DNA of 34,976 nucleotides. Origin: an uncultured Alphaproteobacteria bacterium. Lineage in GTDB: Bacteria > Pseudomonadota > Alphaproteobacteria > CAAHEQ01 > UBA3637. Shown here piece by piece: positions 9,589-26,310 of the stretch; the first letter of the stretch is position 1; the number at the start of each line of letters is the position of its first letter. Made by a program: the position numbers and the translations under genes. The stretch is from NCBI GenBank assembly GCA_947627155.1, contig CANQUX010000017.1, positions 1 through 34,976 of the forward strand, in the 5' to 3' direction. The notes under the pieces were generated by a model, which was given only the letters and a program-made list of their open reading frames with translations, searched no databases and was not told where the DNA came from.

Positions 9589-10284
9589 ATGTATCAGGGG
9601 AAAAAAATTATCGGTATTATTCCGGCGCGTGCGGGCAGTAAAGGAATTCTCAATAAAAATATGACCCTTCTAAACGGGCAGCCGTTGATTTATTGGACAA
9701 TAAAATCTGCCAAAGAAAGTGAATTGTTAGATGAAATTGTTGTTTCAACCGACGGAGCCGACATTAAAGCCTTTTCGCAAGAACAAGGTGTTTCGGTTGT
9801 GGAGCGTCCGCCCGAATTGGCGCTTGATACATCAAAAACCATTGAATGCATTATGCATACATTAAGTGTTTATGAACAAAAAGGGCAACATTTCGATTAT
9901 ATGATGATTTTACAGCCAACCTCTCCGCTTCGGCGCGCCATGCATATTGACGGTATGATTCAATGGCAAATCGATCACAATTATAATGACGGCGTGAGTG
10001 TTTCGCCCATTCCCTATCATCCGATTCTCACACGATATAAGCAAGATGATACTTTAGTAAACGTGCTTCAACACACGTCAACCGTTCGGCGGCAGGATAT
10101 GAAACAGGCTTATTATGTTGACGGGTGTTTATGGCTTTTTAAAACAGATATTTTATCATTACAAACCTCGTTAAACGATGCGCGACACGGGTATGAAATT
10201 GACAGTTATTTTGCACTGGATATCAATACGCCGGAAGATTTACAATCGTGTGAAATTTTATTGTCGGCAAATCAAACAAAGTAA
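9589..10284 (+). CDS. CMP-nonulosonate cytidylyltransferase (NeuA/PseF/LegF-like)
   Basis: 231 residues. The family activates sialic or related nine-carbon acids to CMP-sugars for surface glycans. The N-terminal nucleotide-binding motif IIPARAGSKGILNKN is canonical, followed by YWTIKSAKES, IVVSTDGADI, LQPTSPLRRA and the C-terminal SYFALDINTPEDL. Length fits the short PseF/LegF/NeuA catalytic domain with no fused second domain. The exact sugar (Neu5Ac, pseudaminic, legionaminic or other) cannot be read from sequence. No nonulosonate biosynthesis or transferase gene is adjacent. GGAGAGGAG lies about 10 bases before the ATG. It ends flush against the convergent gene at 10285. Confidence 0.85.
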   Translation: MYQGKKIIGIIPARAGSKGILNKNMTLLNGQPLIYWTIKSAKESELLDEIVVSTDGADIKAFSQEQGVSVVERPPELALDTSKTIECIMHTLSVYEQKGQHFDYMMILQPTSPLRRAMHIDGMIQWQIDHNYNDGVSVSPIPYHPILTRYKQDDTLVNVLQHTSTVRRQDMKQAYYVDGCLWLFKTDILSLQTSLNDARHGYEIDSYFALDINTPEDLQSCEILLSANQTK

Positions 10285-15482: not shown

Positions 15483-16892
15483 TTAAAACCGAAAATAAAT
15501 AAAGGCACTGTATCCGCTGCCCGTTAAAATGACAATCACAAGAAACAACAGGAAAATTAGCCAAAGATTGATGAAAAAGTGTGTCCAAAAATTCCGATAG
15601 CGTAAAACAGATTTAAACACGCCCGTTGAAGCGATGACGGCAAAGGCAATAATGAACCACAACAGCCCTTGCACATAATAAGAAACGCCGAACGCTTGTT
15701 TATAGGGAAGAAGTCCGAACATTAACCGAATGTAATCATAAGCTTGCGAGAGTGTTTCCGCCCGAAAGATAACCCAGCCGAGCAGTAAGGCGATTAAAGC
15801 GTAACACCGGCCGATAACGGCATAAAAAACGGCGGGAATGTGCGTGATATGCAGAGAATGCGCCGCGGCTTTTAACAGTTTTTCCAAAATCACGAAAAAG
15901 CCTTGCCATAATCCCCACACAACCATGGTCCAAGCGGCGCCGTGCCAAAAGCCGGTTAAGCAAAACACCACCGCCAGATTGAAAACGGTTCGCAACAAGC
16001 CGCATTTATTGCCGCCCAAGGGAATATATACATACGATTTAAACCAGCTTGACAATGAAATATGCCACCGACGCCAAAATTCGGAAACCGATTTGGAAAG
16101 ATAAGGATAATTAAAGTTTTCCAAAAAGCGAAAACCGAACATACGCCCCAATCCGATGGCCATATCGGAATAGCCCGAAAAATCGAAATAAATTTGTAAG
16201 GCATATAAAAACGCGCCGAGCCACGCAATGGCAGGTGTTAAAGACGAAACGGAACCGGCAAAAATAACATCAACGCTATGCCCCACCATATCGGCAATAA
16301 TCACTTTTTTGGCAAGGCCGATTAAAAAGCGGCGTAACCCCTGATAAACCTTTGCCACGGAGTGACGCCGACCGGTCAATTGTTTGGCAACGGTATCATA
16401 GCGCACAATCGGGCCGGCAATCAGTTGCGGAAAACTGCTGACGTACAGCGCCAGTGCGGAAAAACTTTTTTGCGCATCGGCCTTTTGGCGATAAACATCA
16501 ATCACATAAGAAAGCAATTGAAACACATAAAAAGAAATGCCGAGCGGCAGGGCAATATAAAGCAACGGCAGACTTTGTTTTGTTAAATCGTTGAAGGAGG
16601 CAAGAGCAAAATCACCGTATTTGAAAAAGAAAAAAATGCCTAAAATGTAAAAACAGCTTGCCGTACATATCATTTTGGCTTTTTGAGGGTAACGCGTTAT
16701 GCCTTTGGCGGCATAAAACCCGATGACAATAAAACACAGCAACACCAGTAAATGCGCAGGTCGCCCCCACCCGTAAAACAACAGCGAGGCCAAAAGCAGA
16801 AACACATTGCGAAAGCGATTGGGTAATAGGTAATAAATTCCGACAACAATCGGCAGAAAATAACAAAGAAACGTGAATGATGAAAAAACCAT
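15483..16892 (-). CDS. MBOAT O-acyltransferase (AlgI/PatA-like)
   Basis: 469 residues with about ten or more membrane helices. MBOAT proteins of this type take acyl (usually acetyl) groups from the cytoplasm and move them across the membrane for O-acylation of alginate, peptidoglycan or other polymers. Signature segments are FSGYSDMAIGLGRMFGF, FWRRWHISLSSW (His 277) and the catalytic-His motif GFWHGAAWTM (His 317). The N-terminus MVFSSFTFLCYFLP is typical. GAGGT lies 8 bases upstream. The ATG immediately follows the stop of the AlgJ-like gene, so it is translated from the same phase-variable operon. The acceptor polymer is not known. Confidence 0.93.
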   Translation of the reverse strand: MVFSSFTFLCYFLPIVVGIYYLLPNRFRNVFLLLASLLFYGWGRPAHLLVLLCFIVIGFYAAKGITRYPQKAKMICTASCFYILGIFFFFKYGDFALASFNDLTKQSLPLLYIALPLGISFYVFQLLSYVIDVYRQKADAQKSFSALALYVSSFPQLIAGPIVRYDTVAKQLTGRRHSVAKVYQGLRRFLIGLAKKVIIADMVGHSVDVIFAGSVSSLTPAIAWLGAFLYALQIYFDFSGYSDMAIGLGRMFGFRFLENFNYPYLSKSVSEFWRRWHISLSSWFKSYVYIPLGGNKCGLLRTVFNLAVVFCLTGFWHGAAWTMVVWGLWQGFFVILEKLLKAAAHSLHITHIPAVFYAVIGRCYALIALLLGWVIFRAETLSQAYDYIRLMFGLLPYKQAFGVSYYVQGLLWFIIAFAVIASTGVFKSVLRYRNFWTHFFINLWLIFLLFLVIVILTGSGYSAFIYFRF

Positions 16893-18134
16893 TTAAAAAT
16901 ACCTCATTAACTCTTCCAATTTTTGATCGGAAATGCTTAAAATTAAAATATCAATTTTATCATCTGCCAATTCTTTTTCACGCTCCGGCCAATGAATACC
17001 CCACGGCGTACCTGTTCCGTTTTCATTGAATCGATGCATTCTGAAATGCGAAAAGGTGGGCATTAAAAACGGAAGCAGATAATAAGAAAAGCTGTCACCG
17101 ATGATATAAGCCCGATACGGCGCGCCTTTTTCATAATCCGAAAACCGAAACTGCTTATCCCGATGAATTTTTAAAGCGGCTTTATCTTTATAAATATAAT
17201 GTTGATATTGCGTTTCGCCGTAATCAATGCCGTTTAAGTAATTAGACCCGTTATAAAAATACGGTTTTTGCGTATATTGATAAGGCGACCACACTTTTTT
17301 TGTTAATTCAATATGATAATCATCGGGCGTGACGGCACGAATGTCTTTAAAATCTTTTTGTATGGCTTTCATTAACAGCTGATAGGCTTCAAACGCTCCG
17401 TCTTCCGACCAATGCGTGTCGGTTTTGTAAATTAACGGAAATTGACTGCGCGCTTGAGAAATAAGGTGTTTTTCAATCGGCACCACGGTTATTATGTCTT
17501 GCACAGCCGTTTCAACCTGTTCCGCAACGGAGGGATTGTTTTCTCTTAAAATATAATCAGGCATCCATTTGTGATAAATGCGAGAGACTTCCGGCGGAAT
17601 AATTAAATAGACTTTAATGTTATGCTCTTTGGCAAAATCGGCCATTTTTTGAACGTTTTTTCGAAGGAGGCTGATTTGTTTGGGTGTGAATAAATAAGAG
17701 TTTTGATAAACGGATAAAATCGGCAAATTACGGGAAGCGTTTAGACTCGAAAAGATAAAATTTTCTTTACCGATGATTTGCCTTTGTGTTCCCAAATCGC
17801 GCCCCAAACCCGATTCGAAATAAAAATCAATCAGCTCAGGTCGTTTCGGCAAATGATCGGAGATGTATTTTTCAAGCTTTTCGCTTTGCGTCCAAAAATA
17901 ATGCGGAAATTTTTCTAAATTGCGCCGTTCACGCACACTTTTCGTTTGTGTTGTATCAGGCGTAAGACCAATGGTTAATAAACCGCATAAAGGAAAAAGA
18001 ATAAACAAGCAAAGAAGGAATGTATGTATGTATGTATGTATGTATGTATGTATGTATGTATGTAGTCTTTGTTGGCGAGCATTTTTTTCGGCTTTAAAAA
18101 GGGGGATAAATTTTTCATTTGGTTTCCTATGCAT
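16893..18134 (-). CDS. AlgJ/AlgX-like SGNH O-acetyltransferase, phase-variable
   Basis: 413 residues in the open frame. A membrane anchor (about residues 38-57) precedes a periplasmic SGNH-hydrolase-like domain with the AlgJ/AlgX catalytic set: Asp239 and His241 in KTDTHWSEDGA, Ser348 in IIGDSFSYY. These proteins attach acetyl groups delivered by an MBOAT partner, here encoded directly downstream. Residues 25-38 are YIHT repeats coded by a tetranucleotide tract, so slippage changes frame. The ATG at 18134 sits at the predicted transcription start with no ribosome site. A second ATG at 18118 has AGGA 6 bases upstream but lies in a different frame and reaches a stop soon after the repeat in this copy. 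The expression state is therefore uncertain. Family sure; acceptor unknown. Confidence 0.9.
   Translation of the reverse strand: MHRKPNEKFIPLFKAEKNARQQRLHTYIHTYIHTYIHTFLLCLFILFPLCGLLTIGLTPDTTQTKSVRERRNLEKFPHYFWTQSEKLEKYISDHLPKRPELIDFYFESGLGRDLGTQRQIIGKENFIFSSLNASRNLPILSVYQNSYLFTPKQISLLRKNVQKMADFAKEHNIKVYLIIPPEVSRIYHKWMPDYILRENNPSVAEQVETAVQDIITVVPIEKHLISQARSQFPLIYKTDTHWSEDGAFEAYQLLMKAIQKDFKDIRAVTPDDYHIELTKKVWSPYQYTQKPYFYNGSNYLNGIDYGETQYQHYIYKDKAALKIHRDKQFRFSDYEKGAPYRAYIIGDSFSYYLLPFLMPTFSHFRMHRFNENGTGTPWGIHWPEREKELADDKIDILILSISDQKLEELMRYF
18020..18064 (-). repeat. Tetranucleotide repeat, about 11 copies (ATGT/TACA)
   Basis: 45 bases with perfect 4-base periodicity (11.25 units) inside the 5' coding part of the AlgJ-like gene. 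The unit is not a multiple of three, so each gain or loss shifts the frame. This is the classic structure of a slipped-strand contingency locus. Confidence 0.97.
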
Positions 18135-24347: not shown

Positions 24348-25290
24348 AGGGCTGTCACATCTTTCAACCGGTGCGCTTTGGATTGTTTTTGCCTGTGTTG
24401 TCGGCTTGATTTTGTTTTTGGACTTGTTTGTTTTTCATAAAAAATCGGAAGAGCCGTCTTTAAAAAGCACGTTTCATATTTGTTTGGGATATTTATGCGT
24501 TGCCTTACTTTTCGGCTTGTTTGTCATTTTTGAAAAAGGCCGGGAAACAGGGTTTTTATATTATACCGGCTATTTGGTGGAATTCAGTTTGTCCATGGAT
24601 AACATTTTTGTTATGTCGCTTATTTTTACGGGGCTGCATGTGGCATCGGCTTATCAACATCGGGTTTTATTCTGGGGCGTTTTGGGTGCCATTATTATGC
24701 GTGCCGTCATGATTTTACTCGGCGCCGGACTTGTCAGCTCGTTTCACTGGATTTTATATTTTTTCTCGGCGTTTTTAATTTATACCGGTGTGAAAATGCT
24801 TTTGGAAAAGAAAGAGGAAAGAAACGATTTATCCGAAAACAAAGTGATTACTTTTTTAAAGCGTTTTATGCATGTAACGCCCGCTTTTCACGGAGAACAC
24901 TTTTTTGTGAAAGAAAAAGGCAAATGGGCAGCAACACCGCTCTTTTTTGCATTGATGAGCATTGAGTTGATGGATGTTGTTTTTGCCGTTGACAGTATTC
25001 CTGCCATTTTCTTGATTACGCAAGATGTTTTTGTGATTTATACCAGTAATATTTTTGCCATTTTGGGCTTGCGGTCGTTATACTTTTTATTGGCGGCAGC
25101 CGTTAATCGATTTACCTATTTAAAACACGCCTTATCATTGGTGCTTATTTTTATCGGTTTAAAAATATTTTTACCCCATATCGGTATCACCGTTTCGAAT
25201 TTAATGTCGTTATGTGTCACATTTTCACTGTTGGCAATGGGAATCATTGCCTCACTTTATTTCACAAAAAAACCTTTTCTGAAAAGATAA
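24340..25290 (+). CDS. TerC/Alx family membrane protein
   Basis: 316 residues from the ATG at 24340 (AAAGGA upstream); a start at 24310 lies inside ampD. Nine or so membrane helices. The family motifs with acidic membrane residues are EFSLSMDNIFVMSLIF and ELMDVVFAVDSIPAIFLIT. TerC/Alx proteins export manganese or other metals and protect secreted metalloproteins. Its last 34 bases overlap the end of the convergent kinase gene. Confidence 0.93.
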   Translation: MFEGLSHLSTGALWIVFACVVGLILFLDLFVFHKKSEEPSLKSTFHICLGYLCVALLFGLFVIFEKGRETGFLYYTGYLVEFSLSMDNIFVMSLIFTGLHVASAYQHRVLFWGVLGAIIMRAVMILLGAGLVSSFHWILYFFSAFLIYTGVKMLLEKKEERNDLSENKVITFLKRFMHVTPAFHGEHFFVKEKGKWAATPLFFALMSIELMDVVFAVDSIPAIFLITQDVFVIYTSNIFAILGLRSLYFLLAAAVNRFTYLKHALSLVLIFIGLKIFLPHIGITVSNLMSLCVTFSLLAMGIIASLYFTKKPFLKR

Positions 25291-25658
25291 GTTAAAATTT
25301 GATACATTAATCTGTATCGCAGAATAATCCAATAACATTTTATTAAAAAATTTAATTTTGTGGATTTTCTGCCCAAAAAACCGTCTATTCTTTTTAAGAA
25401 AAAAGCATGTAAACCCCATATCCATTCTTTTTCCGTTAAATGAAACTGTTGTTGACAAAGTGAAAGCCATTTAATGAAATGAAAATAGGAGATTATGACA
25501 AAAGGAGAACGATAAATTAAACAAAAAATATATCGCATTAAATCTTCACTGATACATCCGAAACGAACTTCTTCAAAATCTATAAAAGCAACGCTTTGAT
25601 GGTTTCTGAATAAAATATTATTATTGTGAAAATCCCCATGAATAACAGCATTTTGCAA
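25257..25658 (-). pseudogene. C-terminal half of the phase-OFF LicA/APH-like kinase
   Basis: The frame is open continuously from the repeat (25751) to the stop at 25257; the TTG at 25658 is only a possible restart. It carries the catalytic Brenner loop HGDFHNNNILF and the metal-binding IDFEE of the aminoglycoside phosphotransferase/choline kinase fold. This frame differs from that of the N-terminal half, and the two meet within the GGAA/TTCC tract. Removing one repeat unit, or adding two, joins them into one protein of about 349 residues. As it stands the half lacks a proper start, so the kinase is OFF. The AT-richness exceeds that of the flanking genes, suggesting horizontal origin. Confidence 0.85.
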
Positions 25659-25707
25659 AATACCTTCTTTTGAAACAGATATTTTATTAAAATTTTTTAA
25701 AATTCGA

Positions 25708-26310
25708 TTATAAAGACATCTTCCTAAAAAGTTTTTTGCTTTCCAGAGAGAGGAAGGAAGGAAGGAAGGAAGGAAGGAAGGAAGGAAGGAAGGAAGGAAG
25801 AGAAGAAGAAAAAAGTTTATTTTCTATATTTTGAATTTTTTCTTGTATTAAATTATATTCCCGACTCCAATCGATTGCCGGAATAATAATATTTTTATCT
25901 TTCCATTCCGTTTGTAAAAAACAAGCATACGCCTTTAAAATTTTTTGAAAATCCTTATATTTTATTTGACAAAATCGTAAAGATTTCCCCGGCAGATATG
26001 TTAAAATAAATCCATATTGATGATTATATAAAAAAGAGGATTTTCCCTGAATGCGTATCGGTTTTACGGTTAAAATTTTTGAATTTTTTTCCAGTGTTTC
26101 ATAAACGCGGAACAATTGTTCAATACTTTCCGGTTTATGATTCACACAAAGCTTAATCAAAAATTTTTCATCGATTGTTTTAACAACAAAATTAAGGGAT
26201 CCGGATCCGCGCTTTAATTTCTGATGCTCGATAATCGGTTTTTGCAAAAGTGTTTCCTGCAAAAATCGGATAAAGTCAGAAGTATTAAAATTTTTAAAAA
26301 CCGGATTCAT
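25708..26310 (-). CDS. N-terminal half of LicA/APH-like kinase, truncated by repeat frameshift
   Basis: The ATG at 26310 has AAAGG about 7 bases upstream and sits about 15 bases after the predicted transcription start; the longer ORF start at 26382 lies upstream of the promoter. The N-lobe is recognisable: glycine-rich RGSGSLNFVVKT, then FLIKLC with the ATP lysine, and YGFILTYLPGKSLRF as hinge. The frame runs through the tetranucleotide tract as LPSF repeats and stops at 25708, before the catalytic loop. Relatives include choline kinase LicA, which drives phosphorylcholine decoration of LPS in Haemophilus and is switched by CAAT repeats. The true substrate here is unknown. Confidence 0.85.
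   Translation of the reverse strand: MNPVFKNFNTSDFIRFLQETLLQKPIIEHQKLKRGSGSLNFVVKTIDEKFLIKLCVNHKPESIEQLFRVYETLEKNSKILTVKPIRIQGKSSFLYNHQYGFILTYLPGKSLRFCQIKYKDFQKILKAYACFLQTEWKDKNIIIPAIDWSREYNLIQEKIQNIENKLFSSSLPSFLPSFLPSFLPSFLSLESKKLFRKMSL
25751..25800 (-). repeat. Tetranucleotide repeat, about 12 copies (GGAA/TTCC)
   Basis: 50 bases of perfect 4-base periodicity (12.5 units) inside the kinase gene. Change by one unit shifts the frame. The count in this sequence leaves the gene frameshifted. Confidence 0.97.

Follow-up and report, generated by a model that had tools for sequence, protein, structure and literature searches.

Long tetranucleotide tracts in an APH-family kinase gene and three glycan-type genes suggest phase variation in an uncultured alphaproteobacterium

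The window analysed here, a whole stretch of 34,976 nucleotides from an uncultured Alphaproteobacteria bacterium (source genome G000), carries a kinase gene on the minus strand (26310-25257) with the following features:

25708..26310, minus strand: N-terminal kinase half of 200 aa, which starts with the ATG at 26310, crosses the tract in the wrong frame and ends at the 25708 stop
25257..25748, minus strand: C-terminal catalytic half of the kinase, with HGDFHNNN and IDFEE, in a frame different from that of the N-terminal half (Pfam APH, E 9.7e-10)
25751..25800: tetranucleotide tract in the kinase gene, 12.5 units of AGGA (GGAA; on the coding strand TTCC), which encode LPSF repeats

An earlier note on this DNA had described two halves of one kinase, lying in different frames and meeting in a 12.5-unit GGAA tract, and the coordinates bear this out: the frame of the C-terminal half is open from at least 25811 down to the stop at 25257 and overlaps that of the N-terminal half inside the tract, in which all 12.5 units are perfect (TRF span 25751-25805, 98% matches). 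The ORF program puts the start of the N-terminal half at an upstream TTG (26382), and the orthologue in the sister genome G008 starts with an ATG matching 26310. The distance from this ATG to the final stop base comes to 1054 nt, which exceeds a multiple of three by one, and the kinase as assembled is therefore OFF; the note's arithmetic, by which the loss of one unit or the gain of two restores about 349 residues, is correct (349 or 353 aa). The tract begins about 510 nt past the ATG, mid-gene and before the catalytic loop, and apart from the frame break at the tract both halves are open, without further defect.

By its profile matches, the kinase belongs to the APH phosphotransferase superfamily. 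The C-terminal half in the window, the G008 orthologue and homologues score above the gathering cut-off of PF01636, and homologue L008 covers profile positions 4-210 of 239 (E 1e-19); in the window protein the APH match lies in the C-terminal half only, and the N-terminal half alone gave no convincing match. Residues H207, G208, D209, H211, N214, D227 and E229 are invariant across seven homologues. No equivalog cut-off in NCBIfam was reached, a PDB sequence search at E <= 0.01 reached no more than two entries, both aminoglycoside phosphotransferases, and the AlphaFold2 model of the G008 orthologue was poor (mean pLDDT 45.4).

We compared the gene across ten genomes of the genus, with one genome per species. 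Among these, the nearest to G000 are G007, G008 and G009, with 98-99% identity in a uracil-DNA-glycosylase-like protein, and the other six show 76-85% identity in this protein. An intact frame was found in G008, whose orthologue is open, 333 aa long, 78% identical in the search and free of the tract; the halves are each 80% identical to it. In G007 and G009 the kinase gene is absent and its two flanking genes adjoin, and since it is thus gone from two of the four closest species, the gene is dispensable. Open homologues with 30-34% identity stand beside the same glycosylase-like gene in G002, G004 and G006, that of G003 lies about 4 kb from the glycosylase-like gene, and the homologue search gave no match in G001 and G005. 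Among the matches listed, homologues are open and stop-free, with no unrelated frameshifts, and their length varies at the site where the tract sits in G000. Weak matches in G007 (E 2.0e-4) and G009 (E 9.7e-4) were not counted as orthologues; the one in G007 is a different kinase, which adjoins a nucleotidyltransferase-like gene and is presumably, with that neighbour, AmgK/MurU-like.

Among the seven aligned full-length homologues, five (L008, L010, L011, L016, L017) have a phosphoethanolamine-transferase-like gene convergent downstream, a likeness taken from reading the sequences and, for L016, on which Pfam was run, from a Sulfatase match (E 3.7e-44). Also by reading, the L018 homologue adjoins a glycosyltransferase-like gene and the L015 homologue a TerC-like gene. 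A partnership between the kinase and the phosphoethanolamine-transferase-like gene was considered and set aside, as no match to the latter was found in G000 itself, nor in G007, G008 and G009, and the association therefore only hints at kinase function.

Against G008, the N-terminal half has dN/dS 0.28 (27.5 silent changes over 96 sites, 36.5 replacement changes over 390; Fisher p 2.5e-6) and the C-terminal half 0.44 (17.5 silent changes over 89 sites, 36.5 replacement changes over 391; Fisher p 0.0084), both higher than the 0.018-0.114 of six neighbour genes. On these ratios, which would miss a very recent inactivation, the kinase is constrained yet fast-evolving.

The tract census covered 751,740 b of the 1,558,032-b G000 genome (48%), namely the window and 36 further stretches. 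Tetranucleotide tracts of at least 10 nt comprised 156 of 10 nt, 66 of 11 and 8 of 12; no tract fell in the range of 13-43 nt, and above it there were only four, measuring 44, 45, 50 and 53 nt. The longest tetranucleotide tract in 20 third-order Markov simulations (396,764 b each) was 17 nt; the four long tracts form a separate class, far beyond chance length. All four fall within ORFs: the kinase gene and the genes of three further loci, AlgJ/AlgX-like, GT2/CgtA-like and GT10 fucosyltransferase-like:

18020..18064 (window): 5'-proximal (ATGT)11.25 tract of the AlgJ/AlgX-like gene, with the frame ON as assembled
16893..18134, minus strand (window): AlgJ/AlgX-like SGNH-type O-acetylation gene, 413 aa (PF16822, E 2.9e-12)
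15483..16892, minus strand (window): MBOAT (AlgI/DltB-like) O-acyltransferase (PF03062, E 2.1e-30)
L054:12615-12658 (contig C4 of G000): 5'-terminal (TTAT)11 tract of the GT2/CgtA-like gene
L066:3882-3934 (contig C16 of G000): 5'-terminal (AGTA)13.25 tract of the GT10 fucosyltransferase-family gene (PF00852, E 1.7e-14)

The MBOAT gene follows directly after the AlgJ/AlgX-like gene and reaches 144.8 bits for TIGR04091, below the cut-off of 375. The GT2/CgtA-like gene matches PF06306 (E 1.3e-7) and, at 23.0 bits, falls slightly below the cut-off of 23.3 for PF00535; at L054:12592-12658 it has a pair of overlapping ATGs that differ in frame and could permit graded expression. Elsewhere in the window, 9589-10284 encodes a cytidylyltransferase (PF02348, E 1.8e-22), which we take to be of the kind activating sialic or related acids. 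Cysteine-rich proteins, possibly variable surface proteins, are encoded at 121-1329 of the window and at L066:637-2094, the latter with a prepilin-like N-terminus and, by eye, a lectin-like C-terminus.

Each of the GGAA, TACA, TTAC and TTTA classes has one locus only in G000. A pattern search of 43 genomes of the family found GGAA in one (GGAA x6, a single locus, that of the kinase), TACA in three, TTAC in three and TTTA in one, a search for which the reversed-pattern control was uninformative in the GGAA, TACA and TTTA classes because reversal gives the identical repeat. The second census sample, 320,000 b in size, contained none of the four long tracts, so that the genome-wide count of such loci is uncertain. 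Contig C3 of G002 starts (L191:1-20) inside an ATAC tract that lies 5' in a glycosyltransferase-like ORF, where the assembly seems to have broken off, and tract counts in draft genomes may be too low. Further repeats were also observed: G009 has poly-C runs of 12 (L176:14460-14471) and 10 (L169:6970-6979), one close to the start of a membrane-protein-like ORF that follows an ABC-ATPase-like gene, the other at the 5' end of an ORF that by eye resembles a glycosyltransferase, and in G027, from a different genus in the family, a (TTAC)9 tract at L110:1501-1536 lies some 60 bases 5' of a potential start ATG, perhaps in a promoter.

In G000 as assembled, the frames of the AlgJ-like, GT2-like and GT10-like loci are open through the tract. 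The AlgJ-like gene (dN/dS 0.25) has 11 units and is ON in G000, 13 units and is OFF in G008 (the frame from the conserved start hits a stop), 9 units and is OFF in G007 (which lacks the conserved start ATG, and where the frame of a nearby ATG hits a stop), and a short tract of about 3 units in G009, where a 431-aa frame is open (ON). The GT10-like gene is ON with 13.25 units in G000, OFF with 14.25 units in G009, where no ATG frame reaches the enzyme, and open without a tract in G007. As each species is represented by one genome, these differences show tract evolution and not switching within a population; a flank-pattern scan of viral contigs for same-species tract variants gave no match. The AlgJ-like gene is also tandem-duplicated in G008 (L015:18113-20649) and in G007 (L026/L044), with the tract in the first copy only, and is single-copy in G000.

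Several explanations for the broken kinase frame were weighed. The kinase could be a dispensable gene in recent decay, broken by repeat expansion in a pyrimidine-rich linker and heading for loss, with the tract as the lesion; its absence from G007 and G009, the lack of a match in G001 and G005, the presence of the kinase tract in one genome only and a dN/dS above that of the six neighbours would all fit. Yet neither half shows another defect, both are significantly constrained (though a very recent loss would escape detection), and three more long-tract loci exist, two of them with altered lengths in sisters, and we consider decay unlikely. An assembly or sequencing artefact, in which a real tract is in frame and its unit count was miscalled in the draft, seems very improbable: G000 is indeed a draft of 32 contigs, and the G002 contig that starts inside such a tract indicates that these repeats trouble assembly, but ordinary reads can span a perfect 50-nt tract, and a miscalled tract would remain a frame-switching repeat. 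The assembled length of the kinase tract may nevertheless be a consensus or wrong.

The identity given in the earlier note, a phosphorylcholine switch of LicA type in which the kinase would phosphorylate choline for transfer to LPS, can hardly be credited. The superfamily and the tetranucleotide logic are shared with LicA, and the L016 homologue has a Choline_kinase match, albeit below threshold (26.2 bits, cut-off 29); against it, no match to LicD (PF04991) was found in G000 (95.8% complete), with one of the ten genus genomes (G002) over the cut-off, the window and G008 proteins had no match to the Choline_kinase Pfam, choline kinase was absent among the 60 listed of 93 PDB matches, and the tract is mid-gene. 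We therefore rejected the phosphorylcholine identity and kept from the note's OFF-phase LicA/APH-like switch what holds, an APH-superfamily kinase whose frame is broken exactly at the repeat and is otherwise open.

The kinase is, in our judgement, probably a phase-variable (contingency) gene caught OFF. Speaking against such a switch are the single genome and single length from which its tract is known, a dN/dS exceeding that of six neighbours, the mid-gene position of the tract and the absence of the gene from two sisters. The strongest support for it is given by the three further long-tract loci, together with the differences in tract length and frame between sisters at two of them; the constraint on both otherwise open halves, the intact tract-free orthologue in G008 and the varying length of homologues at the tract site also speak for it. 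The best reading of these sequences is that G000 bears a multi-locus, slippage-type phase-variation system of at least four loci. Slipped-strand mispairing during replication would gain or lose GGAA units; since the unit is 4 nt, two thirds of the tract lengths would shift the catalytic half out of frame and end translation after about 200 residues, presumably with loss of kinase activity (the OFF state), and the remaining third would yield the kinase at full length, in which an LPSF-repeat linker precedes the catalytic loop. The frame logic of the latter follows from the coordinates and the protein is predicted. Such a linker would be tolerated in the ON state, as the variable length of the homologues at this site suggests.

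Because the three other loci are of glycan type by family, we predict that the kinase most likely phosphorylates a sugar of LPS or another part of the envelope, or a precursor of one; the neighbours of the kinase family, together with these loci, point to the same substrate class. Acting on a surface glycan, the kinase would by its switching yield a population mixed in surface types. We lean, with less confidence, towards a broader reading, in which this uncultured genus, with relatives from animal guts, would have a Haemophilus-like multi-locus tetranucleotide phasome on surface glycans, its four genes (fucosyltransferase-like, CgtA-like, O-acetylation and kinase) being switched independently and each gene acquiring or losing its tract on its own from one sister species to another.

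If this reading is true, multi-locus SSR phase variation is not limited to known pathogens. With its small genome and at least four long-tract loci, of which two alternate in frame between sisters, this uncultured alphaproteobacterium would be a test case, and as the same gene occurs with and without a tract in pairs, the birth of a contingency locus is open to study. The genome-wide set of loci is of more interest than the kinase gene alone, as a known kind of system in an unexpected lineage; among the titles we found in the open-licence PMC literature, none was on phase variation or simple repeats in this lineage.

Compared with the APH family (PF01636), the kinase scores above the cut-off like its members and differs by the repeat tract and by reaching no NCBIfam equivalog cut-off. 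It shares with LicA of lic1 a place in the broad APH/choline-kinase superfamily and a tetranucleotide tract, and differs in that G000 has no LicD and in that the kinase has no choline-kinase match and a tract away from the start codon. In H. influenzae, all but two of the tetranucleotide repeats in ORFs adjoin the start codon, and one of these two lies in the middle of oafA (PMC2651432); the authors propose that both might serve to modulate the protein and not to switch it. The mid-gene tract of the kinase thus has a precedent in oafA, and since its frame is broken at the tract, an ON/OFF switch is the simpler reading. The H. influenzae contingency loci (licA, lic2A, lic3A, oafA) resemble those of G000 in having long tetranucleotide tracts within surface-glycan ORFs, at several loci per genome, with lengths that vary between strains and with some tract-free orthologues (PMC2651432). 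G000 differs from H. influenzae in being alphaproteobacterial, in its units (GGAA, TACA, TTTA and TTAC), in a length variation known between species only and in a kinase tract that precedes the catalytic loop.
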